Assembly (NCBI GenBank): GCA_021202635.1
Contig: JAJQCQ010000027.1
Span: 23,951 to 63,257 of the forward strand
Direction of reading: 5' to 3'
DNA: 39,307 nt
Source: Lachnospiraceae bacterium
GTDB lineage: Bacteria; Bacillota; Clostridia; Lachnospirales; Lachnospiraceae
Position 1 is the stretch's first letter, and every line of letters starts with the position of its first letter. This document shows positions 4,927-32,740 of this stretch, piece after piece. Position numbers and translations under genes: made by a program. Under the pieces are notes generated by a model that was not told the DNA's origin, made no database searches, and saw only the letters and a program-made list of their open reading frames with translations.

Positions 4927-4945
4927 TGCTGTTCTGAACTGTTAC
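4927..4945. mobile_element. MITE fragment (right-end inverted repeat) in the rmlC leader
   Basis: The 19 bases TGCTGTTCTGAACTGTTAC are identical to the right end of the intact element at 19460-19635. No matching left end is recognisable upstream, only a weak GTGTGACAGC, so this is a relic. It lies between the promoter and the start codon of rmlC and would be transcribed in its leader. Confidence 0.6.
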
Positions 4946-4976
4946 TGCAATACTATCAAAAACCAGGAGATATAAA

Positions 4977-5567
4977 ATGGGAAAAATAACAGTAGAAACC
5001 TGTGAAATCGAAGGCCTGAAGGTCATCACCCCGACTGTTTTCGGGGATGCCCGCGGCTATTTTATGGAAACCTATAATTACAACGACTTCGCGGCGGCGG
5101 GGATCGATATGAGCTTTGTGCAGGACAACCAGTCCTCCTCCCGGAAAGGGGTACTCCGCGGCTTGCATTTTCAGATCAACCACCCGCAGGACAAGCTGGT
5201 GCGCGTCGTGGCAGGCGAAGTATTTGATGTGGCGGTCGATCTCCGGCCGGGATCCGCGACCTACGGCAAGTGGTTTGGCGTCCTGCTTTCCGCAGAAAAC
5301 AAAAAACAGTTTTTTATTCCGAAGAATTTCGCGCATGGATTTGTCGTCCTCTCTGATCTGGCAGAGTTTGCCTACAAGTGCACGGACTTTTATCATCCCA
5401 ATGACGAGGGCGGTATTGCCTGGAATGACCCTGAGATCGGTGTGGACTGGCCCATTCCGGATGGCATGGAACTGATTCTCTCTGAAAAAGATCAAAAATG
5501 GGGGTCTTTCTCTGAATATACCGCGAAGCGCGCCTCCTCCGATCGTGTCGCACCGGCTTTGTCCTGA
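4977..5567 (+). CDS. rmlC: dTDP-4-dehydrorhamnose 3,5-epimerase
   Basis: Cytosolic cupin-fold enzyme that epimerises dTDP-4-keto-6-deoxyglucose at C3 and C5, the third step of dTDP-L-rhamnose synthesis. At 196 residues it has the usual length. Visible motifs are GDARGYFMETYNYNDF, FVQDNQSSSRKGVLRGLHFQ (the His is the expected catalytic base), DLRPGSATYGKW and FFIPKNFAHGFVVLSD. The ATG at 4977 follows AGGAG with six intervening bases. It opens the right arm. RmlB lies 7.2 kb away on the other strand; RmlA and RmlD are not in the window and must be encoded elsewhere if dTDP-rhamnose is made. Confidence 0.96.
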   Translation: MGKITVETCEIEGLKVITPTVFGDARGYFMETYNYNDFAAAGIDMSFVQDNQSSSRKGVLRGLHFQINHPQDKLVRVVAGEVFDVAVDLRPGSATYGKWFGVLLSAENKKQFFIPKNFAHGFVVLSDLAEFAYKCTDFYHPNDEGGIAWNDPEIGVDWPIPDGMELILSEKDQKWGSFSEYTAKRASSDRVAPALS

Positions 5568-5624
5568 GCACATCGATTCATCCGCGCCGCTTTATGACTC
5601 CAAAGAGGATAATGTATTTATAAT

Positions 5625-6449
5625 ATGAAGAAAGAACGTTTTAAACTGCCAAAGGACCTGTATAAAAACAGACGCTTACTGAAAAAAATGGCAAAAAATG
5701 ACCTCCGGAACCGATTCGCGGGGTCCTATTTTGGTACCGTCTGGGCCTTCATTCAGCCTATCGTAACGATTCTGGTCTATTATTTTGTGTTTGGCGTGGC
5801 CATGCGCGGGGGGAGCTCCGCGGAAGGCGGGACGCCGTTTGTGCTTTATCTGGTGGCAGGAATCATCCCCTGGCTTTTCTTTCAGGAGGGACTCACAAAT
5901 GCAACCAACTCCTTCCTGGAGTACAGCTACCTGGTGAAAAAAGTGGTCTTCGACATCGACATCCTGCCGATGGTCAAGCTGCTTTCCGCCACAGTGGTTC
6001 ACTGTTTTTTCATCCTTTTCGTAATTATTTTATTTGGATGCTACGGCCGCTTCCCTTCGGTCTATTATCTGGAGCTGATCTACTACGCGCTCTGCCTGTT
6101 CCTTCTGATCCTGGCTTTCGCGTATATTACCAGCTCCGTGGTCATCTTCTTTCGGGATCTCTCGCAGATTGTCTCCATCCTGCTGCAGGTCGGCGTCTGG
6201 CTGACTCCGATCATGTGGGAAGAGAGCATGCTCAGCTCCTATTCCTGGGGACCGGCTGCTCTTACCGTTTTAAGACTGAATCCAGTCTATTATATCGTTC
6301 ATGGCTACCGGAACGCCCTGATCAGTCAGCGCTGGTTTTTTGAAGACCCGCTCTGGACGCTCTATTTCTGGGTGTTTCTTGCCGCAAGCTTTGCGATCGG
6401 CAGCTGGGTGTTCAACCGCCTGAAGGGACATTTTGCGGATGTACTCTGA
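5625..6449 (+). CDS. Polysaccharide ABC transporter permease (Wzm/RgpC/TagG-like)
   Basis: A 274-residue ABC-2 type permease with about six hydrophobic segments, for example FIQPIVTILVYYFVFGVAM, PFVLYLVAGIIPWLFFQ and LFLLILAFAYITSSVVIFF. It has the family signatures NDLRNRFAGSYFGTVWAFIQP near the N-terminus and LTPIMWEESML with LNPVYYIVHGYRNALI near the C-terminus. It should form the membrane channel that moves an undecaprenyl-linked polysaccharide across the cytoplasmic membrane together with the ATPase at 6585-7838. The ribosome site is weak: AGAGGA lies about 16 bases upstream. The symbol wzm, rgpC or tagG depends on the polymer, which is unknown, so none is assigned. Confidence 0.93.
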   Translation: MKKERFKLPKDLYKNRRLLKKMAKNDLRNRFAGSYFGTVWAFIQPIVTILVYYFVFGVAMRGGSSAEGGTPFVLYLVAGIIPWLFFQEGLTNATNSFLEYSYLVKKVVFDIDILPMVKLLSATVVHCFFILFVIILFGCYGRFPSVYYLELIYYALCLFLLILAFAYITSSVVIFFRDLSQIVSILLQVGVWLTPIMWEESMLSSYSWGPAALTVLRLNPVYYIVHGYRNALISQRWFFEDPLWTLYFWVFLAASFAIGSWVFNRLKGHFADVL

Positions 6450-6584: not shown

Positions 6585-7838
6585 TTGGATAACAAATTTG
6601 CGATCCGTGTGGATCAGGTCAGCAAGGTCTATAAACTTTACAACAAACCCTCTGACCGGCTGAGGGGAGGCCTGGGACTGACCCGAAAAAAACGCTACCG
6701 GGAACACCGTGCGCTGGACCAGGTGAGTTTCACCGTGCAGGAAGGCGAAACAGTCGGAATTATCGGTGTAAATGGCTCCGGGAAATCCACGATTCTCAAA
6801 ATCATCACCGGTGTCCTCACCCCGACGGAGGGTTCCGTGACAGTGAACGGACGCATCTCCGCACTGCTGGAGCTGGGCGCCGGGTTTAATATGGAATACA
6901 CCGGTATTGAGAATGTCTACCTGAACGGCTCCATGCTCGGCTTTACGGATGAAGAAATCGAACAGCGCCTCCCCGAAATTCTGCGTTTCGCAGACATCGG
7001 CGACTTTGTGAACCAGCCGGTAAAGACCTATTCCAGCGGAATGTTCGTGCGTCTGGCGTTTGCGGTCGCCATCAACATCGACCCGGAAATCCTGATCGTC
7101 GACGAGGCGCTCTCGGTCGGCGATGTGTTTTTCCAGGCCAAATGCTACTACAAATTTGAAGAATTCAAAAAACAGGGAAAAACGATTCTCTTTGTCAGCC
7201 ATGATCTGAGCAGCATCAGCAAATACTGTGACCGCGTGATCGTGCTGAACCAGGGCACCAAGCTGGATGAGGGCCGGCCGAAGGCCATGGTCGATCTCTA
7301 TAAACGGCTCCTGGTTCACCAGGAAGGAGAACCGCCCAGAGGAACGGCTCCAAAAGACGGCGGAGCCTGGAAACAGGCGATAGAAGTCAATCCCCACCTG
7401 CTGGAATACGGGGAAAAACAGGCGGAGATCATTGATTTTGCCGTGACAGACAGCCGCGGGATGCTGACGAATACCGTTGAAAAAGGCAAGCTCTGCACGA
7501 TAAAAATGCGGATTCGCTTCCATGAGGATTTACAGGAACCGGTCGCCGCTTTTACGATCAAGGACATGAAGGGAACGGAAATCACCGGTACCAATACTAT
7601 GTACGAAAAGGTCGCGCTTCCCGCAAAAGCCGGAAGCATCGCGGAAGTGGATTTTACCCAGGAAATGAACCTGCAGGGCGGAAATTATCTGATCTCCTTC
7701 GGCTGTACCGGCTATATGGAAGGAGAATTTCATGTTTTCCACCGGCTCTACGATGCCTGCAATCTGACCGTCATATCGGTAAAGGATACCGTTGGCTTTT
7801 ATGATATGAATTCGGAAGTGACGGTTACGACCTCGTAA
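6585..7838 (+). CDS. Polysaccharide ABC transporter ATPase with Wzt-like C-terminal cargo domain
   Basis: A 417-residue ATP-binding subunit partnering the permease upstream. The nucleotide-binding domain (about residues 1-245) has Walker A GVNGSGKST, the Q-loop region ELGAGFNMEYTGIENVYLNG, signature YSSGM, Walker B ILIVDEALSVGD and the switch His in FVSHD. Residues 265-417 form a beta-rich domain (EIIDFAVTDSRGMLTNTVEKG, MNLQGGNYLISFGCTGYMEGE) of the Wzt C-terminal type. In E. coli O8/O9a that domain binds the modified non-reducing end of the polymer before export. The start is a TTG at 6585 with GGCAGG eight bases upstream. The next two genes, a methyltransferase and a kinase-fold protein, suggest that such a terminal modification exists here. 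Confidence 0.93.
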   Translation: MDNKFAIRVDQVSKVYKLYNKPSDRLRGGLGLTRKKRYREHRALDQVSFTVQEGETVGIIGVNGSGKSTILKIITGVLTPTEGSVTVNGRISALLELGAGFNMEYTGIENVYLNGSMLGFTDEEIEQRLPEILRFADIGDFVNQPVKTYSSGMFVRLAFAVAINIDPEILIVDEALSVGDVFFQAKCYYKFEEFKKQGKTILFVSHDLSSISKYCDRVIVLNQGTKLDEGRPKAMVDLYKRLLVHQEGEPPRGTAPKDGGAWKQAIEVNPHLLEYGEKQAEIIDFAVTDSRGMLTNTVEKGKLCTIKMRIRFHEDLQEPVAAFTIKDMKGTEITGTNTMYEKVALPAKAGSIAEVDFTQEMNLQGGNYLISFGCTGYMEGEFHVFHRLYDACNLTVISVKDTVGFYDMNSEVTVTTS

Positions 7839-7856
7839 CTGCTCCGTACCTTCACA
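7835..7856. mobile_element. MITE fragment (left-end inverted repeat) overlapping the ATPase stop codon
   Basis: The 22 bases starting GTAACTGCTCCGTACC match the left end of the intact element at 13895 at 20 of 22 positions. The TAA inside GTAAC is the stop codon of the ATPase gene. No right end follows. It is a remnant or an independently decayed copy. Confidence 0.5.
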
Positions 7857-7883
7857 AAAAGTATGCACTTCGGAGGAATAGAC

Positions 7884-8825
7884 ATGATGCAGGAAAAAAT
7901 TGGCAGCGTGATTCTTGACGACACCTGCTACCCCGGCGAAGACCGCTACAGCGACGGCTCCATAGAGCAGGAGCTCCTCGCGATAGCGAAAAGCTGTAAA
8001 AATGAAGCAGACTATAATGCGGTAATCGCGGAGAAAAAAAGCTGGCCTGTGATGTACCATTTTTCTCACATCCGACACAACCTTCTCTCCTGGGTGCCCA
8101 TCCGCAAAGAAGATAAGGTTCTTGAGATCGGCGCCGGCTGCGGAGCCGTCACCGGTACGCTCGCGGCAAAGGCCGGAAGTGTCACCTGTATCGAGCTTTC
8201 CAGGCAGCGCAGCCTGGTCAATGCCTGGCGGCACCGCGATTATGACAATATCACCATCCTGCTGGGCGCGTTTGAGGATGTCGAAAAACGGCTCACAGAA
8301 AAATATGACTACATCACCCTGATCGGTGTTTTCGAATATGCTGCGCTCTATACAAAGGCAGAAAACCCTTTTGTCCATATGCTCACCACCATTGCGCGTC
8401 ACCTGGCGCCCGGCGGAAAGATTCTGATCGCGATCGAAAACCGGCTGGGGCTCAAATACTGGGCCGGCTGCACGGAAGATCACGTCGGCAGGCTCTTCGA
8501 AGGGCTGGAAGGCTATTCCCGCACCCCCGCCTCTGGTGTACGCACATTTTCGAAACTGGAGCTGGAAAAGCTTTTTGGGGAAGCCGGAGACTTCAAAACT
8601 ACTTTTTACTACCCTTATCCGGATTATAAATTTCCGTTTTCCATCTACTCCGACCGCTATCTTCCACGCAAAGGAGACCTGAAAAACAACCTCAACAATT
8701 ACGACCGGCGACGGCTTCTGCTGTTTGATGAGGGAAAGGTATTTGACAGTCTCATCGAAAACGGACTGTTCCCGCAGTTTTCCAATTCCTTTTTGGTTTT
8801 CCTGGAACAGGAGGAACAGCCATGA
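7884..8825 (+). CDS. SAM-dependent methyltransferase, polysaccharide locus
   Basis: A 313-residue class I methyltransferase. Motif I is VLEIGAGCGAVTGTLAAKAGSVTCIELS (about residues 85-112), motif II-like ITLIGVFEYAALY, and motif III-like HLAPGGKILIAIENRLGLKYW. The ATG at 7884 is preceded by GGAGG with a seven-base spacer; an in-frame ATG at 7863 lacks a ribosome site. The stop overlaps the next start (ATGA at 8822-8825), so the two proteins are translationally coupled. Its place behind a Wzt with a cargo domain suggests methylation of the polymer end, like the methyltransferase half of WbdD; that role is inference. Methylation of an internal sugar or of a precursor are alternatives. Confidence 0.85.
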   Translation: MMQEKIGSVILDDTCYPGEDRYSDGSIEQELLAIAKSCKNEADYNAVIAEKKSWPVMYHFSHIRHNLLSWVPIRKEDKVLEIGAGCGAVTGTLAAKAGSVTCIELSRQRSLVNAWRHRDYDNITILLGAFEDVEKRLTEKYDYITLIGVFEYAALYTKAENPFVHMLTTIARHLAPGGKILIAIENRLGLKYWAGCTEDHVGRLFEGLEGYSRTPASGVRTFSKLELEKLFGEAGDFKTTFYYPYPDYKFPFSIYSDRYLPRKGDLKNNLNNYDRRRLLLFDEGKVFDSLIENGLFPQFSNSFLVFLEQEEQP

Positions 8826-12757: not shown

Positions 12758-13840
12758 TTATCTTCCTTTATACATCTCATCATAATATTTCTGATAATCG
12801 CCGCTGGTGACATTGGCCATCCAGTCTTCGTGCTCAAAGAACCAGCGAATTGTAAGACGGATGCCGTCCTCAAACTTTGTCTCCGGCTCCCAGCCCACCT
12901 CTGCGCGAATCTTGTCCGGGGCAATCGCATAGCGGCGGTCGTGTCCTTTCCGGTCCGTCACATAAGTGATCAGCTTTTCACTGACAAGTGCCTTGCGCGG
13001 ATCATCGTCGGGGAGCATCTCCTGGAGCGTATCCAGGATGATGTGAATGATCTGAATATTCTGCCGTTCATTGTGCCCGCCAATATTATAAGTCTCGAAC
13101 AGACGCCCCTTCTCCTGCACCAGGTCGATGCCCTTCGCGTGATCCTCGACATAAAGCCAGTCGCGGACATTTTTGCCATCGCCATAGACCGGGAGCGGCT
13201 TGCCCTGAAGCGCATTATTGATGATCAGCGGGATCAGCTTTTCCGGAAACTGATACGGACCGTAATTGTTGCTGCAGTTCGTGATGTTCGCCGGGAAGCG
13301 GTAGGTATCCATATAGGCCTTTACGAGCATATCCGAGGAAGCCTTGCTCGCGGAGTAGGGGCTGTGCGGTGCATAGGGAGTCGTCTCGTAAAAATACTCC
13401 CCCTCATTTTCCAGTGAACCATAAACCTCGTCGGTCGACACGTGGAGAAACTTTTTCCCCTCCTGAAAGGTACCGTCCGGGAGCTCCCAGGCTGCCTTCG
13501 CCGCATTCAGCATCACCAGTGTGCCAAGTACATTCGTCTTTACAAAAACCTCCGGATCCCGAATACTCCGGTCTACATGGCTTTCCGCCGCAAAATGAAC
13601 CACACGGTCGATCTCATTCTCTTCAAAAATCCGGTTTATCGCCTCTGTATCACAGATGTCCGCACGGATAAAGGTATAATTTTCCCGGTTTTCCACATCA
13701 CGCAGATTCTCAAGATTGCCCGCATAGGTCAGTTTGTCCACATTGATAATCCGGATTTCATCTCCATATTTGCGAAACATGTAGTGAATGTAGTTTGAAC
13801 CGATGAAACCGGCTCCTCCTGTTACAAGATAGGTTCTCAT
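12758..13840 (-). CDS. rmlB: dTDP-glucose 4,6-dehydratase
   Basis: A 360-residue extended short-chain dehydrogenase that converts dTDP-glucose to dTDP-4-keto-6-deoxyglucose, the second step of dTDP-rhamnose synthesis. Motifs are VTGGAGFIGSNYIHYM (NAD binding, residues 5-20), HFAAESHVDRSI, STDEVYGSL, the catalytic YSASKASSD (Tyr and Lys), NCSNNYGPYQFPEKLIPL and VYGDGKNVRDWLYVEDH. The ATG at 13840 lies six bases after AGGAGG; an in-frame upstream ATG at 13936 would add 32 residues with no family counterpart. It converges on the right polysaccharide arm. The region upstream of its ribosome site carries a GC hairpin (13864-13880) and then an intact MITE, so its promoter has probably been reshaped by that insertion. 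Confidence 0.97.
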   Translation of the reverse strand: MRTYLVTGGAGFIGSNYIHYMFRKYGDEIRIINVDKLTYAGNLENLRDVENRENYTFIRADICDTEAINRIFEENEIDRVVHFAAESHVDRSIRDPEVFVKTNVLGTLVMLNAAKAAWELPDGTFQEGKKFLHVSTDEVYGSLENEGEYFYETTPYAPHSPYSASKASSDMLVKAYMDTYRFPANITNCSNNYGPYQFPEKLIPLIINNALQGKPLPVYGDGKNVRDWLYVEDHAKGIDLVQEKGRLFETYNIGGHNERQNIQIIHIILDTLQEMLPDDDPRKALVSEKLITYVTDRKGHDRRYAIAPDKIRAEVGWEPETKFEDGIRLTIRWFFEHEDWMANVTSGDYQKYYDEMYKGR

Positions 13841-13894
13841 AGCTTTCCTCCTTTTCAATCCACGCTCCCGCCCGGGGAGCAACGAAAAATGCAC

Positions 13895-14029
13895 GTAACT
13901 GTTCAGTACCTTCACAGCTACGAGGGAAAAGCCCATTTAAAATCGCTTCGCGATGGGGCTTTTCCCCATAAGCTATAAGCTTTCATACGTACCTCGCAGC
14001 AGGTGCGAGGTACTGTCCTGAATAGTTAC
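13895..14029. mobile_element. Intact IS66-type MITE, 135 bp, with 8-bp target duplication
   Basis: The element begins GTAACTGTTCAGTACCT and ends with the inverse of GTAACTATTCAGGACAG. It is bounded by perfect 8-bp direct repeats AAATGCAC at 13887-13894 and 14030-14037. Inside are a strong hairpin (13924-13966, GGGAAAAGCCCAT against ATGGGGCTTTTCCC with an inner ATCGC-TTC-GCGAT) and a second one (GTACCTCGCA against TGCGAGGTAC, up to 14012). No open frame of note. GTAA ends plus an 8-bp duplication are hallmarks of the IS66 family. It lies downstream of the deacetylase-like gene and upstream of rmlB, and the hairpin could stop transcription coming from the former. Confidence 0.8.
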
Positions 14030-14086
14030 AAATGCACAACGATGTATCTGTATCTATATGCAGACAGCCGGACGCCAAACAGCTCC

Positions 14087-15838
14087 CTAGCTGTCCTCTC
14101 CGGCCGCGCTGCCCTCATCGTCAGTCGCTTCCGTGCTGCTTTCCTCCGAAGAACCGGAAGCGGTGTACTCCGAGCTCATCGTCCCGGCCGCGTCAGAGAG
14201 CTCCGCCACCGTATCCGGACGCAGCGCATCCCATACCGCGCTCACGTCAAACAGGTCTGATAGCAGATCCGCGTTGTAATACATCCGGTATCCATCGATA
14301 TTTCTCCTGCCCATCCGCATGGATGTACCGTTAAACTGTACCCAGTACTGCGTCGAATCCACACAGCAGAAGATATTGTACCCCTGCTCTTTCAGATAGA
14401 TATAATACTCATTGTCCTCTGAGTATTCTGTCCAGTCGCTGATATCCGCACCAAACGCAAAGATAATGATATCCGTCTCGCCAACGATCGTCTCGACATT
14501 GTTCTTCCACCGCTCTGTATCCGTCATCGTCCCCTCCAGGCCTTTCGCCAGAGGATCAATATGCCCCCAGGTGTGACTCGTGAATTCCCAGCCGTCTGCC
14601 TTCAGCGCGTCCGCGACAGCTGTAGCCGCGTCCACTTCCGCCTGCCAGGCCTCTTCATCGAAGTCCGGGTTTTCTTCCAGATATTCCCTTTGCCAGCTTG
14701 TGAGACGGTCTTCATCGCGCGTCAGATATACCTCATCTGTCCGGTAACCGAGGATCCCCTCATATCCGGTCAGTGCGATCGTCCCCTTATGACCGTGATA
14801 GGCGAAGTCCGGGTGCAGATCCACAAACGTGTCAATCCACGGAATCAGATCATAATCACCGACCGATACCGTACCGTCATCTTCGATATACTCCGCCTTC
14901 ACATCACCATTCTCATCCAGTACCAGCCGCGACGCAAAGCCGTCTCCGTCCATATAATGATAATAGCACACATCATCCTGCGAAAGCACGAAAGGAGTTT
15001 TCCCTTCCGGGAGCAGGATTTCCTTGCGGGTGACCGTACCATCGTCATTGACCTCGCACATATCGTGCATACTGACCATGACATAGCCTTCCTCGTACAT
15101 GGTCTCCATAATCGCGGAAAACTCGTCCATCGTCACCATGTACTGATTGTAGCCTTCTGCATAAAGGTCGCCGTCAAAAGCTTTGGACGCGTCCCAGATA
15201 ATCGTGTGGAAAAAGATGTGCGTCACCTCTTCCGGCGCCCAGGATACACAGTTTGCTTTCGTCTTTTCGTAGCTGGATGCCGCCTGCTGCAGCGTCTCAC
15301 TCAGCTCATAATATTCCGAGGCCTGCACACAGGCAATCGCACTGTCGTAATCATACATGGCGGCCAGATTTTCCGCCTCCATCAGCACTGCATCGATCTC
15401 AGCCTCTTCGGCAGTCGTAAATGTATCATCGTCCGTACCAGACGCTTCGGACTGCACAGCAGAACCAGCATCCGTCTCCAGGACTTCATCGGTACCGGTT
15501 TCCTCCCCGGCGGTACTCACCACATCTGTTCCCCCGGTCTCATTCAACGTCGTGACAGCCGTATCGCCATCCGAGCCTGTCCCGGAATCACCCGTCTCTG
15601 AACCATCCGCCAGACTGCCCGTCTCAGCCGTATTCACACTGCCCTGCTGCTGATCTCCGGCAGAGCTCAGCTTCACCACCTCCGGAATAACGACCTCCTT
15701 CACAAGCAATGCTCCCATCACCACAAGAGCCAGCACCAGAAGTGATATCGCACACTTCATAAGCAGCTCATTTTTTCGTCGCTTCGTACGCCGCTCCTGC
15801 GGATTATAATCCTGGTCTCCCATGTTCCCCTCCTTCAT
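14087..15838 (-). CDS. Membrane-anchored polysaccharide-deacetylase-like protein
   Basis: A 583-residue surface protein: a basic cytoplasmic head, one membrane helix (about residues 27-52), a Ser/Thr/Asp/Glu-rich stalk to about 145, a helical segment, and an extracellular domain from about 200. The domain shows CE4-like (NodB) features: VLSQDDVCYY with an Asp pair (288-289) where the metal/base Asp is expected, and SHTWGHI (His422 and His426), matching the HxxxH metal motif. A 130-residue insertion lies between them. It may de-N-acetylate a wall or capsule glycan, but the classical TFDDG and RPPYG motifs are not clear, so activity is uncertain. A second start at 15823 has GGAGGGG close by; the 15838 ATG has GGGG five bases upstream. 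It is transcribed with the small membrane gene upstream. Confidence 0.72.
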   Translation of the reverse strand: MKEGNMGDQDYNPQERRTKRRKNELLMKCAISLLVLALVVMGALLVKEVVIPEVVKLSSAGDQQQGSVNTAETGSLADGSETGDSGTGSDGDTAVTTLNETGGTDVVSTAGEETGTDEVLETDAGSAVQSEASGTDDDTFTTAEEAEIDAVLMEAENLAAMYDYDSAIACVQASEYYELSETLQQAASSYEKTKANCVSWAPEEVTHIFFHTIIWDASKAFDGDLYAEGYNQYMVTMDEFSAIMETMYEEGYVMVSMHDMCEVNDDGTVTRKEILLPEGKTPFVLSQDDVCYYHYMDGDGFASRLVLDENGDVKAEYIEDDGTVSVGDYDLIPWIDTFVDLHPDFAYHGHKGTIALTGYEGILGYRTDEVYLTRDEDRLTSWQREYLEENPDFDEEAWQAEVDAATAVADALKADGWEFTSHTWGHIDPLAKGLEGTMTDTERWKNNVETIVGETDIIIFAFGADISDWTEYSEDNEYYIYLKEQGYNIFCCVDSTQYWVQFNGTSMRMGRRNIDGYRMYYNADLLSDLFDVSAVWDALRPDTVAELSDAAGTMSSEYTASGSSEESSTEATDDEGSAAGEDS

Positions 15839-15859
15839 CCGTTCCCCTTTATTTTCCTT

Positions 15860-16396
15860 TTACTCAGCCAGGCCGGCCAGTGTGACGTCCAGAGACAGCG
15901 CTGTTCCCTCTCCCGTATCCGTCGTCTGCGCATCCTGACTGACATCGGTCTCCTGCTCGTTGGCAGAGCTCTGGCTGCCAGAAGAATCCTGGTCAGTCAC
16001 AGATATGATCTCCATATCCGTCTCCTCCTCCGTCTGCTGTTCTGCAGCAGCTTCCTCTGTATCGGACAGAAGCTCTGTCTCCTGCACATTCGTCCCCATA
16101 CGCTCGGACCCGGTCTCGAGACTGCCATATTCCAAAACAACTTCATAGATCATCGCAGCCACCAGTACCACGATCAATACAAACAAAACTCCCCAGAGAA
16201 GGCGCATCTTCGCATCGGTCTCCTCATCCCTGCGCCTGCGCCCGGATGGTTCTGAAAGATGTTCCTTCGGTACCGTTCCGATCGGCTGCGCACGTCGGCT
16301 GCGCCTGCTCTCTTCCGGTATCTCTCCGGACTCACCGTTATCCGGATTCCCCGTATAGATGTGGGAACGTCCCAGCGTTTTCTTCTGTTCATCCAT
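15860..16396 (-). CDS. Small single-pass membrane protein with acidic Ser/Thr-rich tail
   Basis: A 178-residue protein with a polar, basic cytoplasmic head (about 1-62), one clear membrane helix (MRLLWGVLFVLIVVLVAAMIYEVVL) and an acidic Glu/Thr/Ser/Gln-rich outer tail of about 90 residues. No enzyme motif is seen. The ATG at 16396 has GGAG seven bases upstream; an ATG at 16414 in frame is less well placed. It lies 21 bp upstream of the deacetylase-like gene, behind a good promoter. The matching architecture (head, one helix, low-complexity outer stalk) suggests they act together at the cell surface. Family not recognised. Confidence 0.7.
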   Translation of the reverse strand: MDEQKKTLGRSHIYTGNPDNGESGEIPEESRRSRRAQPIGTVPKEHLSEPSGRRRRDEETDAKMRLLWGVLFVLIVVLVAAMIYEVVLEYGSLETGSERMGTNVQETELLSDTEEAAAEQQTEEETDMEIISVTDQDSSGSQSSANEQETDVSQDAQTTDTGEGTALSLDVTLAGLAE

Positions 16397-16509
16397 GTCT
16401 TTTCTCCGTTTCAATCAACCAGCAGATCTGTCCGCAACAGCCTGTTATCGCCTGTATGCCTGCCGCATTCCGCTTCAGTCGGCATAAAATTCATCCAATT
16501 CAGTTAATT

Positions 16510-16538
16510 AGTATACCATGACATCGCCTTTGTTTCAA
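16510..16538 (-). promoter_or_regulatory. Promoter of the small membrane protein/deacetylase pair
   Basis: On the minus strand TTGAAA (16538-16533) and TATACT (16515-16510) are spaced 17 bp. The transcript would start near 16503, leaving a leader of about 105 bases. The leader contains an inverted repeat TATGCC...GGCATA. Confidence 0.65.
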
Positions 16539-16581
16539 CGACCCAATCCATCTTTTTTTATGAAGCAATCTTATTTTTCTC

Positions 16582-16666
16582 TTAACCGTTCAGAACAGGT
16601 TACCATCTGTGGCCTGCTGTTCTGAATATTTACCTATTTTTAATAACCGTTCAGAACAGCATCGAA
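16582..16666. mobile_element. Decayed MITE copy plus an extra left half
   Basis: A mini-element runs from TTAACCGTTCAGAACAG (16582) to CTGTTCTGAATATTTAC (16633), with an 18-base middle. Nine bases later a second left end, ATAACCGTTCAGAACAGC (16643 on), appears with no partner. No clean 8-bp duplication is seen; a 7/8 match (TTATTTTT against CTATTTTT) is offset by three bases. It sits in the 457-bp gap between the divergent genes at 16396 and 16854. The rest of that gap holds the two promoters and a leader. Confidence 0.6.
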
Positions 16667-16693
16667 ACTATACTAATCAGCAATTTTCCCCAC

Positions 16694-16722
16694 TTTACGA
16701 AATTCTCTTCCGATGATATACT
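16694..16722 (+). promoter_or_regulatory. Promoter of the DUF4364-fprA pair
   Basis: TTTACG (16694-16699) and TATACT (16717-16722) with a 17-bp spacer. The leader of about 125 bases contains a short inverted repeat ACGTTTTT/AAAATACGT near 16801-16820. No riboswitch was recognised. Confidence 0.55.
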
Positions 16723-16853
16723 TTCCTCGTATGGGTTGGTCGTGTTTTGACAGGCACAGTAAAACAGGACGGTTCATGCGGGAAACGGAGTTTCTGTCAC
16801 ACGTTTTTCCAAAATACGTATGACGCAATAACAATTTAGAGAGGTGGTTACTG

Positions 16854-17366
16854 ATGTCTGAACCGATTACGCTTTACAAGCTGATCATTCTGTATATGCT
16901 GGACAAAGCGGATTTTCCACTGACAGACGCGCAGATTTCTGATTTTATCCTCAATCAGGGCTATACTGACTACTTCACACTCCATTCTGTGCTTGGAGAC
17001 CTGGAGGATAGTCAGATGATCCAAAGTGAGACCATCCAGGATTGCGTATACTACTCGATAAAGGATGGCGGCACGGAGGCTCTGAAATATTTTCGCCACC
17101 GCATCTCGCCTTCCATCCGTCAGGAGGCGGACCGGTATATGTCCGAAAACAAAGTCCGGATGCGTGACGAGGTCTCCGTCCTCGCGGATTACTATAAGAC
17201 GACAAGCGGGGACTACGCCGTGCGCTGTCTGGTAAAAGAGAAGTTTTCCAACCCAATCGATCTGACCATTACGGTCGCGACGGAAAGTCAGGCGAAATCC
17301 GCCTGCCGCAGCTGGCGTGAACACAGCCAGCGCATTTATCAATTCATTATGGAGGAGTTATTATGA
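16854..17366 (+). CDS. DUF4364 family protein (winged-helix-like)
   Basis: A 170-residue protein starting SEPITLYKLIILYMLDKADFPLTDAQISDFIL, the conserved head of the DUF4364 family found in Clostridia. The N-terminal half (residues 5-75) reads as a winged helix: LTDAQISDFILNQGYTDYF followed by LHSVLGDLEDSQMIQSETIQDCVYYSIKDGGTEAL. The C-terminal half is a small alpha/beta domain. A transcriptional role is likely from the fold but has not been shown for the family as far as I know. The ATG at 16854 follows GAGAGGTGG. The stop overlaps the start of fprA (ATGA at 17363-17366), so both are co-translated and it may regulate or partner that gene. Confidence 0.85.
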   Translation: MSEPITLYKLIILYMLDKADFPLTDAQISDFILNQGYTDYFTLHSVLGDLEDSQMIQSETIQDCVYYSIKDGGTEALKYFRHRISPSIRQEADRYMSENKVRMRDEVSVLADYYKTTSGDYAVRCLVKEKFSNPIDLTITVATESQAKSACRSWREHSQRIYQFIMEELL

Positions 17367-18529: not shown

Positions 18530-18543
18530 TATTCTGGATTCCG

Positions 18544-18612
18544 GTCAACCATTCGAAACAGCACCGACCGGGGCAGGACGCAGATCTGCGGCGTGCTGTT
18601 CTGAATCTTTCC
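18544..18612. mobile_element. Decayed MITE copy downstream of fprA
   Basis: GTCAACCATTCGAAACAGCAC on the left and the inverse of GGAAAGATTCAGAACAGCAC on the right enclose a short middle with the hairpin CGCAGATCTGCG. Terminal GTAAC bases have drifted and no target duplication remains. The inner ends are the best preserved part. Confidence 0.55.
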
Positions 18613-19363: not shown

Positions 19364-19394
19364 ATTTGTTCTCCCTGTATTGTATCCCTTTTGT

Positions 19395-19453
19395 GTGACA
19401 ATTCAGAACCGAAACGATGCGCAGACCAGCGGTCTGCCCTCCTGAATCATTCC
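19395..19453. mobile_element. Decayed MITE copy upstream of rpe
   Basis: GTGACAATTCAGAACC on the left pairs with the inverse of GGAATGATTCAGGAGG on the right, around a perfect hairpin GCAGACC-AGC-GGTCTGC. At about 59 bp it is short and its ends have drifted. Its right edge abuts the target duplication of the next copy. Confidence 0.5.
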
Positions 19454-19459
19454 TCATTT

Positions 19460-19635
19460 GTAACTATTCAGAACAGCAGGCCGCAGACCGCCTGCGATGC
19501 AGGCTATATGCCGCTAACGCGTCATATGTCTGTGGCTTGATGGGCGTTCCGCCCATCCCGAAATGAAAATACAGCCTTTAGCAGGTAAACCTGCACAGTC
19601 TGTCTTTTCATTTCGATGCTGTTCTGAACTGTTAC
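19460..19635. mobile_element. Intact IS66-type MITE, 176 bp, with 8-bp target duplication
   Basis: Left end GTAACTATTCAGAACAGCA and right end TGCTGTTCTGAACTGTTAC match as inverted repeats at 17 of 19 positions. Perfect 8-bp direct repeats CCTCATTT flank it at 19452-19459 and 19636-19643. The interior has hairpins GATGGGC-GTTCC-GCCCATC and CGAAATGAAAA against TTTTCATTTCG, with an inner GCAGGTAAACCTGC. No transposase frame fits in it. It accounts for most of the gap between rsgA and rpe. Confidence 0.85.
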
Positions 19636-19662
19636 CCTCATTTTATACCTGTCCGCTGCGCT

Positions 19663-20592
19663 TCAATACTTTCGCCTGTCCTTCAATTCCTTCGCCAGCA
19701 GCACGTAGCTCTCGTATCTGGCGTGATGAATTTCCCCTGCCTCTACGGCTTCTTTCACCGCACAGTCCGGCTCCTTCAGATGCATACAGCCCTGAAACCG
19801 GCAGCGTGTCTCATAAGGGGCAAATTCGTGAAAACAGTCTTTCAATTCTTCGTATTCGATGTCCTGTAAATATAAAGAACTGAAGCCGGGCGTATCCAGA
19901 AGATAACTGTTGCCAGGAGCCATCGTTTCTGAAGCATTTCTGACAGGTTCCCTTCCTGCGTAAGGCTTCAGCACCAAAAGCTCTGTATGCCGGGTCGTAT
20001 GCTTTCCCCGATCAATCTTCCGGCTGATCTCTCCGACCTCCATGTGTTCTGCCGACAAAAAACAATTCGTCAGCGAAGATTTGCCAACTCCGGAAGGCCC
20101 TGCCAATACGGTCGTCTTTGCCTCCAGAAGGGTGCGGATCGCATCCAGTCCTTCGCTCTGTGCGGCGCTGACAAATCGCACCTCACAGCCGCAGCCGCGA
20201 TAAATCCGCCCCAACTCCCGTGCCTGCTCCTCATCCGCCAGATCTGTTTTGTTAAAACAGATAATCACCGGAATCTCCTGGCGATTCATAAGGATCAGAA
20301 AACGATCCAGCAGGTTCAGATTTGGTTTGGGCTGCGTCAGAGCAAACACCACCATCGCCTGGTCAACATTGGCTGCGGCCGGACGAATCAGCATATTTTT
20401 CCGTGACAGCAGCCGGTCAACATTCCCCGTTTTTTCCTTTTCATCCAATATGGAAATCTCGACATTGTCGCCGACAAGGGGTTTCACCTTATCTTTCCGA
20501 AAAATTCCTTTCGCTCTGCACTCGTAAACCGCTCCATCTTCCGCGTGTACGTAGTAAAAACCGCCGACCCCTCTGATTATCTTTCCACGCAT
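19663..20592 (-). CDS. rsgA: Ribosome small-subunit GTPase RsgA
   Basis: A 309-residue circularly permuted GTPase that assists late 30S ribosome maturation. The order is an N-terminal OB-fold (GKIIRGVGGFYYVHAEDGAVYECRAKG), then G4 FNKTDL before G1 GPSGVGKSSL (about residue 170), G2/G3 GKHTTRHTE and DTPGFSSL. A C-terminal zinc knuckle follows (HEF, CRFQGCMHLKEPDC). The ATG at 20592 follows CGGAG by five bases. It lies 99 bp downstream of prkC in the operon, the usual Firmicutes neighbour. Confidence 0.96.
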   Translation of the reverse strand: MRGKIIRGVGGFYYVHAEDGAVYECRAKGIFRKDKVKPLVGDNVEISILDEKEKTGNVDRLLSRKNMLIRPAAANVDQAMVVFALTQPKPNLNLLDRFLILMNRQEIPVIICFNKTDLADEEQARELGRIYRGCGCEVRFVSAAQSEGLDAIRTLLEAKTTVLAGPSGVGKSSLTNCFLSAEHMEVGEISRKIDRGKHTTRHTELLVLKPYAGREPVRNASETMAPGNSYLLDTPGFSSLYLQDIEYEELKDCFHEFAPYETRCRFQGCMHLKEPDCAVKEAVEAGEIHHARYESYVLLAKELKDRRKY

Positions 20593-20691: not shown

Positions 20692-22962
20692 TTACGAGCT
20701 GACTTCGCTGAATGCAATCCCGGAATATTCAATCTTGCTGATTACCTCTCCTGTCTCCTCGTCGAGCAGATAGACATACGCTATTCCCGTGGACTCTCCA
20801 CTCGCGCCTTCCACCTGAAGCGTATAAGGAAACGTCGTCGTCCCCTCAAAAATCGTCGTCTCCGTACCATTCTGGTAAAGCGTAATCCGCACAGGCTGTC
20901 CTGTATATCCGGAAGGCGCCGTCAGAGAAGCATTGCACATCCAGGTGCCGCTTGTGGTCGTATCGGAAGAAGAGGACGTACTGCTGCTTTCCTCTATGGT
21001 AATATTGTCATCATCCGATGAGGTATCCGGTCCGGTGCTGATGTAAAGAGTAACCGTACTTCCCTTGGGAACCTGATTGTCCGTATCCTCCGCACTTGTA
21101 CGCGTCACCATGCCGGCACTGATCGTGTCGCTGGATTCATATGCATAAGCCGCAGTCAGACCGAGCATTTCCAGAGCTTCCTCCGCCCGTTCCACCGTAT
21201 ATCCGGTCAGATTCCACAGGGTCTTATATTCTGTAACCGTTTCCTCGCTCTCTTCCGTCTCCTCCGGTCCCTGGCTGACGTAAAGAGTAATCGTATCACC
21301 AGTACTTACCAGCTCCCCATATTCCGGATCCGTCGATATAATATATCCGCTTGCCACTGTGTCGCTGTACTGCGTCTGATCCACCGTGTATTTCAAGCCC
21401 TTTGTGATCAGAAGCGCCTGCGCCTGCGTGAGCGCCATATTACTGAGATTATCCAGCACAAATTCCGCTGAAGTCTCCGATTCTGTCTCAGACTCCGTCT
21501 GCTCCTCGGTCTCCGTCTCTGTCTCAGATTCAGAAGAAGTCTCTATCACTATGTTGTCCCCATCGGAAGCTGATTTTTTATTTCCTGAAAAATTCATCAG
21601 GCCAAACGCTTTTGCGAGAAGAACCAGAAAAACAATGCCGACGATCACCGCAATGATAATACCGCCCAGCGTCACTGCCTTCTCCAGCTTTGGATTCAGA
21701 TCGCTGTCCGTATCATGGTCTTTTTTTCTGCGTGCACGCGAATCTTCAAAAGACTCATCCAGCTCATAACCCTCTTCCTGATCATTGTTTTCCAGATCAT
21801 AGGCACCAGTTTCTCCATAGGAACCATCATAAGAGCCATAATAACCGGAATCAACCCCCGCATCCGTCCGATATCCCCCGCTCCAGCGGGTGCCGTCATA
21901 GGAACCGTCCATCGGCGAGACGTCCTGATACTGACTCTTCTGGTAATAACTGCCCGGCTGATAAGCACGGTTCTGTATCGATCCGGTCTCCTGTACATGC
22001 ATATTCGCCGCCGCACCCACATTCAGCGTCTCATCATAAGACGGCATGCGCTGCTCCGCCTTAATCTGTGCCATCTCTTCCTTCGACATCACAATCGTCT
22101 GGGAAGTCCGATCCGGCACCACCCAGGTCACAAAATCCCCTTCCGGATTGACCAGGGACTCCCGCAGGTCACGAATCAGCTCCGTCATATTCGGATAACG
22201 GCGATCTGCGCTTTTCTGCGTACATTTCAGGATAATCTGGTTTGTACTGTAAGGAATTTCCGGAAATTCTTCCTTCGGCCCATGCAATTCATCCTGTAAA
22301 TGATGCAGTGCGATCGCTACCGCCGTATCCCCGTCAAACGGCACATGACCGGTCAGCATTTCATACATCGTAATGCCAAGCGAATAAATATCGCTCTTCT
22401 CATCGCTGTACCCGCCCCGCGCCTGCTCCGGTGATGTATAATGTACGGACCCCATCATCGTAGACGTGATCGTATTCGTACTCGCTGCCCGCGCGATTCC
22501 GAAATCCGCCACCTTTACCTTTCCATCCGTGGAAATAATGATGTTCTGCGGCTTCACATCACGGTGAATAATCCCGTTATTGTGAGCAGCCTCCAGGCCG
22601 GCCGAAATCTGCAGCGCAATACTGGTCATCTCTCTTGCCGAGAGGTGCCCCTTACTTGCAATATACTCTTTCAGAGTAATGCCTTCCACCAGCTCCATCA
22701 CGATATAGTTGATTCCGGCTTCTTCCCCGACATCATAAATATTGACAATGTTCCCATGAGCCAGTCCAGCTGCTGCCTGTGCCTCTGCCCGGAATTTGGA
22801 GACAAGCACCTTGTCGTCCCGGAATTCATTTTTCAGCACCTTAACAGCCACAAAACGGTTCAGCTTATGATCCTTTGCCTTATAAACATCCGCCATCCCA
22901 CCGGAACCGATACGGGACATAATCTCATACCTGTTCTGTATAAATACTCCTGCACTTAACAT
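20692..22962 (-). CDS. prkC: PASTA-domain Ser/Thr protein kinase PrkC
   Basis: A 756-residue membrane kinase that senses cell-wall material and controls growth and division. The kinase domain (about 11-275) has the glycine loop RIGSGGMADVYKAK, Lys41 in VAVKVLK, HRDVKPQNI, DFGIARA and MGSVHYTSPEQARGGYSDEKSD. A Gly/Tyr/Ser-rich juxtamembrane stretch of about 100 residues follows, then one helix (LGGIIIAVIVGIVFLVLLAKA). Outside are an acidic Thr/Ser/Glu stalk, two PASTA domains (beginning near VLDNLSNMALTQAQ and LWNLTGYTVERAEE), a Ser/Thr linker and an extra C-terminal beta domain (LTAPSGYTGQPVRITLY). Two PASTA repeats are fewer than the three of Bacillus. GGGGAGAGGAT precedes the ATG. Stp, its phosphatase, lies 11 bp upstream. 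Confidence 0.96.
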   Translation of the reverse strand: MLSAGVFIQNRYEIMSRIGSGGMADVYKAKDHKLNRFVAVKVLKNEFRDDKVLVSKFRAEAQAAAGLAHGNIVNIYDVGEEAGINYIVMELVEGITLKEYIASKGHLSAREMTSIALQISAGLEAAHNNGIIHRDVKPQNIIISTDGKVKVADFGIARAASTNTITSTMMGSVHYTSPEQARGGYSDEKSDIYSLGITMYEMLTGHVPFDGDTAVAIALHHLQDELHGPKEEFPEIPYSTNQIILKCTQKSADRRYPNMTELIRDLRESLVNPEGDFVTWVVPDRTSQTIVMSKEEMAQIKAEQRMPSYDETLNVGAAANMHVQETGSIQNRAYQPGSYYQKSQYQDVSPMDGSYDGTRWSGGYRTDAGVDSGYYGSYDGSYGETGAYDLENNDQEEGYELDESFEDSRARRKKDHDTDSDLNPKLEKAVTLGGIIIAVIVGIVFLVLLAKAFGLMNFSGNKKSASDGDNIVIETSSESETETETEEQTESETESETSAEFVLDNLSNMALTQAQALLITKGLKYTVDQTQYSDTVASGYIISTDPEYGELVSTGDTITLYVSQGPEETEESEETVTEYKTLWNLTGYTVERAEEALEMLGLTAAYAYESSDTISAGMVTRTSAEDTDNQVPKGSTVTLYISTGPDTSSDDDNITIEESSSTSSSSDTTTSGTWMCNASLTAPSGYTGQPVRITLYQNGTETTIFEGTTTFPYTLQVEGASGESTGIAYVYLLDEETGEVISKIEYSGIAFSEVSS

Positions 22963-30954: not shown

Positions 30955-31029
30955 ATCCTTTCCTCTCCGTGCATCCTGTCCGAAAAACGTCCAAATAACG
31001 CCTCCGCCCCCGGTGTATCGACACGCAAG

Positions 31030-32535
31030 TTACATTCCGGCATTTTTTTCATCCTCTGCCAGAATTTCGCGGATCAGCACCCGCTCATCCATCGGGTACT
31101 GCACGCCGCAGATCTCCTGGTAGTCCTCATGTCCCTTGCCCGCCAGAACAATGATATCGCCCGGCTCTCCATGGTGAATGGCCCAGGCAATCGCTTCCCT
31201 GCGGTCGGTAATCTTCACATACATTCCATCCGTCTTCCTGATGCCACTCACAATATCCTCGATAATCGCCTCCGGTTCCTCAAAACGCGGATTATCCGAC
31301 GTGATCACCGTCAGATCCGCAAGCCTTCCGGAAACCTCCCCCATCTCATAGCGGCGAAGCTTCGAGCGGTTTCCCCCGCAGCCAAATACACTGATCAGAC
31401 GATGCGGATGATATTCGCGCAGCGTCTCCAGAAGGCTCTGGAGCGCCATCGCATTGTGCGCATAATCAATCATCAGCGTGAACGCATCGGAAACCTTTAC
31501 CAGCTCCACACGCCCCTTCACCTTTGCCACCTTCAGTGCTTTCTGAATATCTTCGATCTCCACCCTGAAATGACGGCAGATCGCAATCGCTGTCAGAGAA
31601 TTATATACACTAAACTTACCTGGAATGTCAATCTCAACATCAAAAGAAGTCCGTTCAGCCGCTTCGGAAGAACTCTCATTTTTCCACGAAACCGTATACG
31701 CAATCCCCAGGTAACCTGGCCGCGATACCAGATCCAGATTCTCTGCACGCACTCCCGCCTGTTCCGACAGACCAAAGGTCTCCACCTCACAGGTGTGCCC
31801 TCTCAGAATCTCTTCCAGATGTGCATCATCCGCGTTCAGAATCCCATACCTGCACTGTTGAAACAGACGGCTTTTACACTCCAGATAATCCTCAAAGCTT
31901 TCATGCTCCGCCGGTCCGATATGATCCGGCTCGATATTTGTAAAAATACCAATTTCAAACGGAATCCCCGCCGTGCGCTCCAGCATCAGCCCCTGCGAAG
32001 AGACCTCCATCACCACCACCTGGCAGCCCGCGTCCGCCATCCGGCGGAAATATTCCTGGATCGTGTATGACTCCGGCGTCGTATTGTGCGCCGGGATCTT
32101 CTCATCGCCGATAATCGCCTCAATCGTCCCGATCAGGCCAACCTTATACCCGGCCGACTCCAGAATCGACTTTACCATATAAGTCGTCGTCGTCTTGCCC
32201 TTCGTCCCGGTCACACCGATAATGCGCATCTCATTCGCCGGATAGCCAAAAAACGCCGCCGACATCAGAGCCATCGCATAGCGCGTATCCGCCACTCGGA
32301 TCACCGTCACATCCTCCGGCGCCTCCACCGCATCCTGCACGATCAGCACCTTCGCGCCCTTCGCCACCACATCCGGCACATACTTATGTCCGTCCGTCAC
32401 CGCTCCCTTTATACAAAAAAACAGAGAACCCTCCTCGACCTTCCGCGAATCATTTACCAGTTTCTTCACATCCGTATCAACTGTTCCCTGCAAACATCTA
32501 TACTCTATCTGCTCCAGCAGTTTTTCCAGCTTCAT
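31030..32535 (-). CDS. murE: UDP-MurNAc-tripeptide synthetase MurE (meso-DAP type)
   Basis: A 501-residue cytosolic ligase that adds the third amino acid to the peptidoglycan stem peptide. Motifs are KLVNDSRKVEEGSLFFCIKG, the ATP loop GVTGTKGKTTTTYM (residues 107-120), HNTTPESYTIQEYFRRM, MEVSSQGL, FTNIEPDHIGPAEHESFEDYL and VFGCGGNRSKLRR. DNPRFEEP contains the DNPR motif that marks meso-diaminopimelate enzymes. AAAGGAG precedes the ATG. It is the first gene of the minus-strand block, 75 bp before priA. A -10 like TATATA lies upstream near 32567, but no convincing -35 was found. Confidence 0.95.
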   Translation of the reverse strand: MKLEKLLEQIEYRCLQGTVDTDVKKLVNDSRKVEEGSLFFCIKGAVTDGHKYVPDVVAKGAKVLIVQDAVEAPEDVTVIRVADTRYAMALMSAAFFGYPANEMRIIGVTGTKGKTTTTYMVKSILESAGYKVGLIGTIEAIIGDEKIPAHNTTPESYTIQEYFRRMADAGCQVVVMEVSSQGLMLERTAGIPFEIGIFTNIEPDHIGPAEHESFEDYLECKSRLFQQCRYGILNADDAHLEEILRGHTCEVETFGLSEQAGVRAENLDLVSRPGYLGIAYTVSWKNESSSEAAERTSFDVEIDIPGKFSVYNSLTAIAICRHFRVEIEDIQKALKVAKVKGRVELVKVSDAFTLMIDYAHNAMALQSLLETLREYHPHRLISVFGCGGNRSKLRRYEMGEVSGRLADLTVITSDNPRFEEPEAIIEDIVSGIRKTDGMYVKITDRREAIAWAIHHGEPGDIIVLAGKGHEDYQEICGVQYPMDERVLIREILAEDEKNAGM

Positions 32536-32613
32536 CTCATCGGTTCTCCTTTGTCAATTCTTTCCTTATATAAATATGAAACAGTGGCGGGCACAGTCAC
32601 CTGCCGCTGATTC

Positions 32614-32740
32614 CAAACGGTTCAGAACCGCTCCGTTGCACAGCCTGGTCTCAGCTTCGTTTCGGTCGGTGCTAAACGCGTGCCACTGGCACGCAGCACC
32701 TTTTCATTTTGATGCTGTTCTGAAAGGTTATGAACTGTTA
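32614..32740. mobile_element. Old MITE copy upstream of murE
   Basis: CAAACGGTTCAGAACCG on the left faces TGCTGTTCTGAA on the right, followed by two 10-bp near repeats (TGAAAGGTTA, TGAACTGTTA) that look like a duplicated right end. Inside is a strong hairpin, GGTGCT...GCGTGCC-ACT-GGCACGC-AGCACC (32668-32700). No target duplication remains. It lies in the 541-bp gap between the divergent murE and XRE genes. The rest of the gap holds a possible coding remnant and several palindromes. Confidence 0.6.

Follow-up and report, generated by a model that had tools for sequence, protein, structure and literature searches.

REP sequences and REPINs are dispersed intergenic hairpins served by a transposase acting in trans; they relate to IS200-like transposases and are not known to leave target duplications. 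Classical IS66 insertion sequences carry the genes tnpA, tnpB and tnpC. The parents given for the bacterial MITEs MITEPsy1, MITEPsy2 and MITECca01, in the descriptions available, are IS5-like, Tn3 and IS982, respectively. According to sections of a review on MITEs, these elements generally favour A+T-rich intergenic targets and fold stably, and the word IS66 is absent from the review's main text (PMC10969869). Among the insertion sequences of the ISBst12 group, ISDge4 is described in part of a further report with a GTAACTGCTCAGCA end and an 8-bp repeat (PMC12898284).

The window analysed here, a stretch of 39,307 nucleotides from a Lachnospiraceae bacterium (genome G000), contains short dispersed elements that, judged from their sequences, are very probably MITEs whose ends belong to the ISBst12 group (IS66 family) and which a transposase of that group mobilises in trans, duplicating 8 bp of target. 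This reading draws on the agreement of the ends, on the 8-bp duplications and one empty site, on copies of high identity at multiple loci and on autonomous ISBst12-type elements with closely similar ends, from which we infer both the kind of transposase that moves the elements and its action in trans. The original prediction had described one dispersed family of MITEs with ends of the IS66 type at no fewer than eight sites, all between genes, with 8-bp duplications around the two cleanest copies. Its general reading remains the best one in view of the empty site, the duplications and the matched ends, and its core observation holds, but the eight sites belong to at least two families. The family-2 end, GTAACTG(T/C)TC(A/C)GTACCTTCACA, is found at 13895 and 7835, and family-1 ends of the GTAAC..TTCAGAACAGCA type at 19460, 16582 and 4927. 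The features of the window are as follows.

4929 to 4945, minus strand: lone family-1 end, an exact 17-mer that lies upstream of the ATG at 4977 and has no visible partner.
7835 to 7856, plus strand: lone family-2 left end (GTAACTGCTCCGTACCTTCACA), with no partner seen; its TAA is the stop of an open frame at 6585-7838.
13887 to 13894, no strand: left target duplication of the 135-bp element, AAATGCAC.
13895 to 14029, plus strand: intact family-2 element of 135 bp, with ends GTAACTGTTCAGTACCTTCACA and GTAACTATTCAGGACAG and a perfect 8-bp target duplication.
14030 to 14037, no strand: right target duplication of the 135-bp element, AAATGCAC.
16582 to 16633, minus strand: 52-bp piece of a family-1 element shortened by internal deletion, with a 227-bp ortholog in the congener G035.
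16643 to 16659, plus strand: further family-1 end, a fragment with 2 mismatches adjoining the preceding piece and also found in G035.
18544 to 18612, no strand: decayed short element with both ends recognisable and no clear target duplication, aligned in G035.
19395 to 19453, no strand: decayed mini-element of about 59 bp, its right limit set by eye, also found in G035.
19452 to 19459, no strand: left target duplication of the 176-bp element, CCTCATTT.
19460 to 19635, plus strand: intact family-1 element of 176 bp, with ends GTAACTATTCAGAACAGCAGGCC and GTAACAGTTCAGAACAGCATCGAAA and a perfect 8-bp target duplication.
19636 to 19643, no strand: right target duplication of the 176-bp element, CCTCATTT.
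32614 to 32731, no strand: decayed element of about 118 bp containing a version of a hairpin module of about 51 bp (CTTCGTTTCGGTCGGTGCTAAACG..), its likeness to other copies judged by eye.

As predicted, perfect 8-bp repeats flank each of the two cleanest copies (13895-14029 and 19460-19635). Seven of the eight sites lie between genes, the exception being the end at 7835, which supplies a stop codon. With up to three mismatches, the end motif GTAACWRTTCAGAACAG matched the window 12 times against a mean of 0.22 in shuffled sequences, none of 100 shuffles reaching 12. One match with three mismatches, at 22931-22947, lies within an open frame and may be a chance occurrence. Genome-wide, 240 matches with at most two mismatches were obtained against 2 for the reversed motif. 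The expected density of about one copy per 5 kb across the genome was too high, the genome (240 matches per 3.98 Mb) being about 3.4 times thinner than the window (8 per 39 kb) at this threshold.

The 135-bp element contains two internal hairpins and a third that its left end can form, and matches the family-2 covariance model at 150 bits, the copy being itself among the model's sequences. The 176-bp element folds into a multi-hairpin junction closed by its terminal repeats (-95.2 kcal/mol, z -11.8) and has 11 matches in the genome, itself included, each spanning at least 171 bases at 94-100% identity. No difference in folding energy between strands was found (p 0.29), no intrinsic terminator was listed inside either intact element in a scan of 13700-19800, and a coding interior was set aside by eye. 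One family-1 analysis used 22 of 29 rows.

Evidence for insertion came from flanking sequences and from relatives. In the own genome, 25 elements have target duplications of at least 7/8, in a list selected on this feature. For family 2, an unbiased count was obtained by collecting elements with the covariance model alone, ignoring duplications: 79 of 116 had at least 7/8, against 0.9% for shuffled flanks. A second count, 106 of 148, is biased because 32 of the 148 came from a pattern set chosen with duplications of at least 6/8. In G035, GAGCAACGAAAAATGCTCAACGAGG stands in place of the window's 135-bp element and the copy of AAATGCAC on either side of it, the target differing by one letter; the empty site that the original prediction called for therefore exists in a relative, precisely empty for one of the two intact window elements. 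The 176-bp element is common to the window and G035, and none was seen at its site in G014, G064 and G065. A separate insertion in the opposite orientation, with its own duplication GTTCTTTT, was found in G030. The G035 ortholog at 16582 has corresponding ends, with one differing letter per compared stretch, and the 52-bp piece in the window is an in-place internal deletion of a family-1 element. Altogether, the elements show terminal inverted repeats, a fixed 8-bp target duplication, copies at multiple loci, an empty site and no transposase gene inside, as MITEs do; their lengths of about 49-330 bp leave no room for such a gene.

Family 2, the 135-bp family, was found in 85 of 397 sampled Lachnospiraceae genomes. 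Carriers of the elements that are in culture include Oliverpabstia intestinalis, Blautia wexlerae and Clostridium fessum. No name for this repeat was found in the literature searched, and nothing related to its end letters appeared, by title and abstract, among the literature matches listed. From 156 elements collected, 148 were kept, those outside 126-146 bp, less than 40 bp from a locus end or with duplicate flanks being dropped; one analysis used 105 of the 148. With open frames of at least 90 codons as gene proxy, and 12 of the 148 elements at locus edges left out of the gene-context counts, 5/148 elements fell inside open frames against 935/1480 random positions. The elements are positioned just after stop codons and, between tandem genes, are antisense in 63 cases and sense in 20. 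Two end dialects exist, GTAAC..CAG and GTTAC..CAC, concordant at both ends in 142 of 148 elements and paralleling the end types among IS66-like elements, and the same interior occurs between either. The hairpin motifs of this interior were absent from 10 compared insertion sequences, save for 2 weak partial matches, so the interior is probably not what an internal deletion left behind. It resembles an independent structured segment in which a conserved linker accompanies two hairpins and the left end forms a third, which suggests that ISBst12-type ends may transport cargo that has no relation to the insertion sequence.

Across genera, the alignments indicate that family-2 base pairs are kept by paired changes. 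In a plain MAFFT alignment (n=29), 14 of 31 pairs changed on both sides, and in a model-fitted alignment of 31 sequences 26 of 30 did so, neither count being reached in any of 500 shuffles. Alignments A3 and A4 are model-fitted and their counts lean towards structure; A1 and A2 are unfitted, although the structure was chosen by looking at both. No Rfam match was found on the elements in the window and six relatives, the sub-threshold hit in L424 lying before the element. We tentatively propose, as a possible reading held with less than even confidence, that family 2 is not merely a decayed insertion sequence but a structured element that is mobile, namely a conserved module of two hairpins with a putative RNA or single-stranded DNA function, selected for its fold, carried through much of Lachnospiraceae between two sets of ISBst12-type ends and settling behind stop codons in a preferred orientation. 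The paired changes could instead be a purely mutational effect, template-switch correction rewriting both arms of a palindrome with no selection for structure, which we regard as less likely than not. This alternative fits the pairs being almost all Watson-Crick: among 4061 pair cells, from 141 of the 148 elements, only 33 were G.T and 70 A.C, whereas a small tRNA control, in which the detection rule itself introduces a bias, gave 13 and 0 of 270. Such rarity of G.T is unlike ordinary RNA. Three features that persist in most sequences across genera speak against it: a bulge on one side only, which reads ATTTAAA in the window, a 2x2 internal loop found in one of the subtypes, and a linker that is unpaired and ends in (T)TACGG. 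Correction should erase bulges and leaves unpaired letters unaffected. Should selection act on the fold, gut bacteria carry a mobile module that would become part of mRNAs at many loci; otherwise, family 2 is a clean natural record of palindrome correction shaping DNA. In either case, the family offers many insertions with duplications, one with its empty site, for strain comparison.

As to the source of the ends, the earlier attribution to IS66 was right at the level of the family, the matching type being ISBst12, which has one IS66-like transposase, and not classical IS66. Terminal sequence and 8-bp duplication are those of autonomous ISBst12 members. Eight GTAAC-type ends of L355, L382, L383 and L384 share 10-12 of their first 12 letters with family 1 or 2, and GTTAC-type ends share 8-11. 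L382 is autonomous (1796 bp, ends GTAACTATTCAGCACC and GTAACTATTCAGAACC, duplication CTATGGCA 8/8), and further autonomous elements are L309 (2267 bp, GTTACTATTCAC, 8/8) and two from Geobacillus. Of these two, one is annotated as ISGst1 family (1613 bp, duplication 8/8 on both of two plasmids) and the other as ISGka4 family (1635 bp, 8/8, AACTCGTC). By contrast, classical three-gene IS66 elements do not have the same ends: in these bacteria they begin with GTAAGCG, GTAAACG, GTAAATG or similar, and eight compared elements, whose gene content of three frames in line was read in L300 and L303 only, share 5-8 of the first 12 letters. Classical IS66 was rejected on these ends as the source of family 1, whose end motif had no good match in 30 scanned loci with IS66 hits.

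An autonomous partner was sought in several places. The full IS66 element with exactly these ends that the original prediction had suggested looking for was not found; for exactly GTAACTATTCAGAACAG the best candidate was L382, which shares the first 15 letters. Within 40 stretches of the own genome around ends, drawn from the first 100 of the 240 matches listed, a search for paired ends at distances of at most 9 kb and flanked by 8/8 duplications yielded elements of 21-328 bp and nothing longer. No credible long partner was seen among 80 loci of named genomes, where one 6.9-kb pair and several long chance-like pairs were dropped for poor ends. Viral contigs gave no exact end matches and one transposase relative per transposase search. 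The own genome (97.5% complete) returned 0 matches to an IS66-family transposase in repeated searches, so the elements are filed as having ISBst12-type ends and not as IS66 insertion sequences. In the sample, an ISBst12-like transposase is no commoner in genomes with family 2 than in general (9 of 85 family-2-bearing genomes against 40 of 397 overall, with 8.6 expected, three draws of 397 genomes being taken as identical).

IS256, ISL3 and IS1595 are among the DDE families with 8-bp duplications. A family of this kind, or classical IS66 in the case of family 2, might move the elements, the ISBst12 likeness being convergence; we consider this improbable. Both the lack of a transposase match in the own genome and the lack of association across genomes would suit it. 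Classical IS66 is kept as a candidate because the end of L303, a three-frame element of the congener G002, reads GTAAAACGTAAGTACCTTGACA and agrees with the left end of family 2 at 16 of 22 letters, all of GTACCTT among them, as many as some ISBst12-type ends do. However, only 6-7 of its first 12 letters are identical to family 2, and a classical IS66 part in this family seems unlikely. Convergence would also have to produce the duplication length and 12-15 of the terminal letters exactly as found in ISBst12-type elements that are autonomous, one set from Geobacillus and one from a viral contig, together with dialects that parallel IS66-like end types. That the elements are instead not mobile, being a regulatory RNA or a REP-like repeat dispersed by some other copying process, as the strong covariation, the antisense bias and the placement past stop codons might suggest, is very improbable and, as sole reading, refuted by the empty site in G035 and by the duplications around elements collected irrespective of them, the joint switching of dialect at both ends also speaking against it.

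We therefore return to MITEs with ISBst12-type ends. An ISBst12-group transposase would move the elements in trans, duplicating 8 bp of an A+T-rich, mostly intergenic target, and inserted copies would gather point mutations and lose internal stretches until about 50 bp are left, as directly seen in one case. The fold may be kept because neighbouring mRNAs include the element or because it occurs as single-stranded DNA, only well-folded copies spreading or being tolerated, a part of the mechanism to which we give about even chances; template-switch correction of imperfect palindromes may contribute to the paired changes.

Compared with known systems, the elements resemble MITEPsy1, MITEPsy2, MITECca01 and QMITE2 in being short and devoid of a transposase gene, whereas conservation of the interior across genera by paired changes, as in family 2, is not reported in the available descriptions of these MITEs. 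They share dispersed intergenic hairpins with REP/REPIN sequences and differ from them by plain 8-bp duplications. With classical IS66 they have in common GTAA as the first four letters and 8-bp duplications but only 5-8 of 12 terminal letters, L303 being nearest through GTACCTT. From the ISBst12 group (ISGst1, ISGka4, ISDge4) they are set apart by their length, the missing transposase gene and a family-2 interior absent from the ten compared insertion sequences, while sharing with it GTAACTATTCAG-type terminal repeats and 8-bp target duplications.

The repeated end motif reported in the original prediction was found 12 times in the window at up to 3 mismatches, far above the mean of 0.22 obtained in shuffled sequence. 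Over the whole genome (3.98 Mb), 122 forward and 118 reverse matches (240 in all) were retrieved at up to 2 mismatches, to be compared with the single forward and single reverse match (2 in all) of the reversed-pattern control. The eight window sites, initially regarded as one dispersed family, are indeed real, but they represent two families, exemplified by a 176-bp element (19460-19635; family 1) and a 135-bp element (13895-14029, left end GTAACTGTTCAGTACCTTCACA; family 2), and only two of the eight are intact. Of the other six, three are decayed, two consist of a single end and one derives from a longer element by deletion. Both intact elements are bordered by perfect 8-bp direct repeats, AAATGCAC and CCTCATTT, as had been announced for the two cleanest copies. 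Other repeats were observed in the window: a CRISPR-like array of 32-nt repeats (GTTTCAAGTCATGCCCCCGCAGGGGCAACAAC) extends from 37556 to the window end at 39307, with two units (38418-38482 and 38483-38547) identical down to the spacer, and three 65-nt direct repeats spaced by 54 bp lie at 4-176, probably corresponding to a repetitive protein segment.

Comparison with relatives demonstrated the mobility of the elements. The congener G035, about 96% identical to the window in the compared region, is empty at the 13895 site, where the target reads AAATGCTC. At the 16582 site it carries a 227-bp element vs. 52 bp in the window, while the 19460 element is common to both. No element was seen at the place corresponding to 19460 in genomes G014, G064 and G065, and a separate 176-bp insertion was found near this place in G030, in the opposite orientation and with the duplication GTTCTTTT.

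The 176-bp element has 11 matches in its own genome, itself included, which span at least 171 bases and are 94-100% identical, together with longer (225-228 bp and 328 bp) and shorter (49-64 bp) versions. Because several 49-59-bp forms from different loci are similar, by eye, at their deletion junctions, they may move as units, recurrent deletion being the alternative. In the fully read 227-bp version, a hairpin module of about 51 bp sits within a loop. This module (CTTCGGTCGGCGCTAAACG..CCACTGG..CAGCGCC) occurs inside family 1 and family 2 alike, and its core was found in or adjoining such elements at 7 of 7 places (two judged by eye) over the window and 40 own-genome stretches. Examples are:
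L222 (genomic locus), stretch 7713-7948 containing the module
L004 (genomic locus), stretch 1501-1727 containing the module
Window, 32650-32700, about 51-bp hairpin module

A second module of about 40 bp (ATCCCGCAC..GTGCGGGATGCC..CCCGGCGAGG and variants) is inserted in family-2 elements of loci L177, L214, L220 and L048. Palindromes built solely from two element ends, possibly the smallest element remnants, were also observed:
L136, 5973-5993, 21 bp, flanks matching at 7 of 8 positions
L064, 1497-1517, 21 bp, flanks matching at 7 of 8 positions
L192, 2724-2756, 33 bp, flanks matching at 8 of 8 positions

The exact family-2 end was present in at least 116 stretches of the genome contig collection. 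Among the matches listed (80 loci) are records titled Oliverpabstia intestinalis, Blautia wexlerae, Clostridium fessum and Murimonas intestini; that of Murimonas intestini is marked UNVERIFIED_CONTAM. One Oliverpabstia intestinalis record (L209) also shows a THF riboswitch match of 73 bits at 853-954. A covariance model was run on 397 genomes (334 genera) of the same bacterial family, which we infer to be Lachnospiraceae, and detected family 2 in 85 of the genomes and 75 of the genera; at most 8 candidates were scored per genome, so that copy numbers are lower bounds. No description of these MITEs was found in the titles and abstract beginnings of the literature matches listed, which leave most subscription journals uncovered, and novelty is hence unproven.

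Both families are predicted to fold strongly, at -95.2 kcal/mol (z -11.8) for family 1, with the terminal repeats as closing helix, and -58.6 (z -8.4) for family 2. In family 2, 14 of 31 pairs changed on both sides (89 cells) in a MAFFT alignment of 29 elements, 8 of 20 covaried among 36 elements including a subtype with a different second hairpin, and 26 of 30 covaried in an alignment fitted to the model, which joins the window copy to 30 relatives (31 sequences). None of 500 shuffles reached the observed both-sided changes and covariation score in any of the three alignments, and both signals were lost when partner columns were slid by 1-3; for the count of additional pair types, in contrast, 137, 285 and 1 of 500 shuffles, respectively, attained the observed value. 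Elements whose left end reads GTTAC instead of GTAAC also differ in the hairpin partner of that end and in the right end: these end dialects, whose consensus sequences agree at 102 of 135 columns, are concordant in 142 of 148 elements, with a tie at one end in 5 and discordance in 1. Family-1 covariation is weak: among 22 closely similar sequences, 4 of 71 pairs show it.

Few family-2 elements lie inside open frames, 5 of 148 distinct elements vs. 935 of 1480 random placements; for family 1, this was 1 of 23. Between tandem genes (n = 83), family 2 is separated from the preceding stop codon by 27 nt (median) and is antisense to these genes in 63 cases and sense in 20 (p = 2.4e-6, an optimistic value since copies within one genome are related), whereas family 1 shows no bias (6 and 6 of 12). 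Target duplications are A+T-rich, end in T followed by C or T, and are poor in G on the element's strand; such target preference alone could yield the orientation bias of family 2. Mispairs in family 2 are more often A.C (70) than G.T (33), in reverse order to family 1 (G.T 41, A.C 8). The A.C excess has the direction expected under selection on an antisense-strand RNA, and mutation bias explains it equally well.

As for the transposase, a search for a full IS66 element with these ends, suggested together with the original prediction, gave none in the own genome or at the loci hit by PF03050, the Pfam IS66 transposase profile. PF03050 matched 21 of 60 genomes but not the own genome, included among them, nor G012, G030, G032 and G035, which yet have many end matches; the 30 loci of its hits contained no good family-1 end match and one weak hit (L074). 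Classical IS66 elements in these genomes are about 2.6-2.8 kb long, with ends such as GTAAGCG, GTAAACG, GTAAATG, GTAAGTA and GTAAAAC, the three frames in line being read in L300 and L303 only. The L303 element (2421-5264, in a congener) has ends GTAAAACG(T/C)AAGTACCTT, identical to the family-2 left end at 16 of 22 letters, with GTACCTT at the same offset.

A weak PF03050 hit in G014 (L309, 3458-5724) belongs to an element of 2267 bp that has GTTAC-type ends GTTACTATTCAC and an 8/8 duplication, encoding a Lys/Arg-rich leading frame of 102 aa and a 520-aa IS66-like transposase. This protein, above the Pfam cut-off and below that of NCBIfam IS66 (140 vs. 180 bits), has matches in 30 of the 397 genomes sampled from the bacterial family. 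Among its matching loci, a second type with ends GTAACTATTCAGAACC turned up, whose protein was matched in 37 of 397 genomes; the cleanest example, L382 on a viral contig, is 1796 bp long with an 8/8 target duplication, and its reading frame seems to be interrupted close to the beginning. The presence of a transposase and that of family 2 are not associated in this sample, the former occurring in 9 of 85 family-2 genomes (8.6 expected) and 40 of 397 overall. In Geobacillus, an element annotated as ISGst1 family has ends GTAACTATTCAG / GTAACTATTCAC and an 8/8 duplication, likewise on a second plasmid, and one annotated as ISGka4 family has ends GTAACTATTCAG / GTATCTATTCAG, also with an 8/8 duplication. 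ISDge4, placed in the ISBst12 group (IS66-family elements with a single transposase), has ends GTGACTACTCAGCA / GTAACTGCTCAGCA and an 8-bp repeat, as given in PMC12898284. The ends and 8-bp duplications of L382, the ISGst1- and ISGka4-family elements and ISDge4 argue strongly that the MITE ends are of the ISBst12 type, and a transposase of this group may be the mobilising enzyme.
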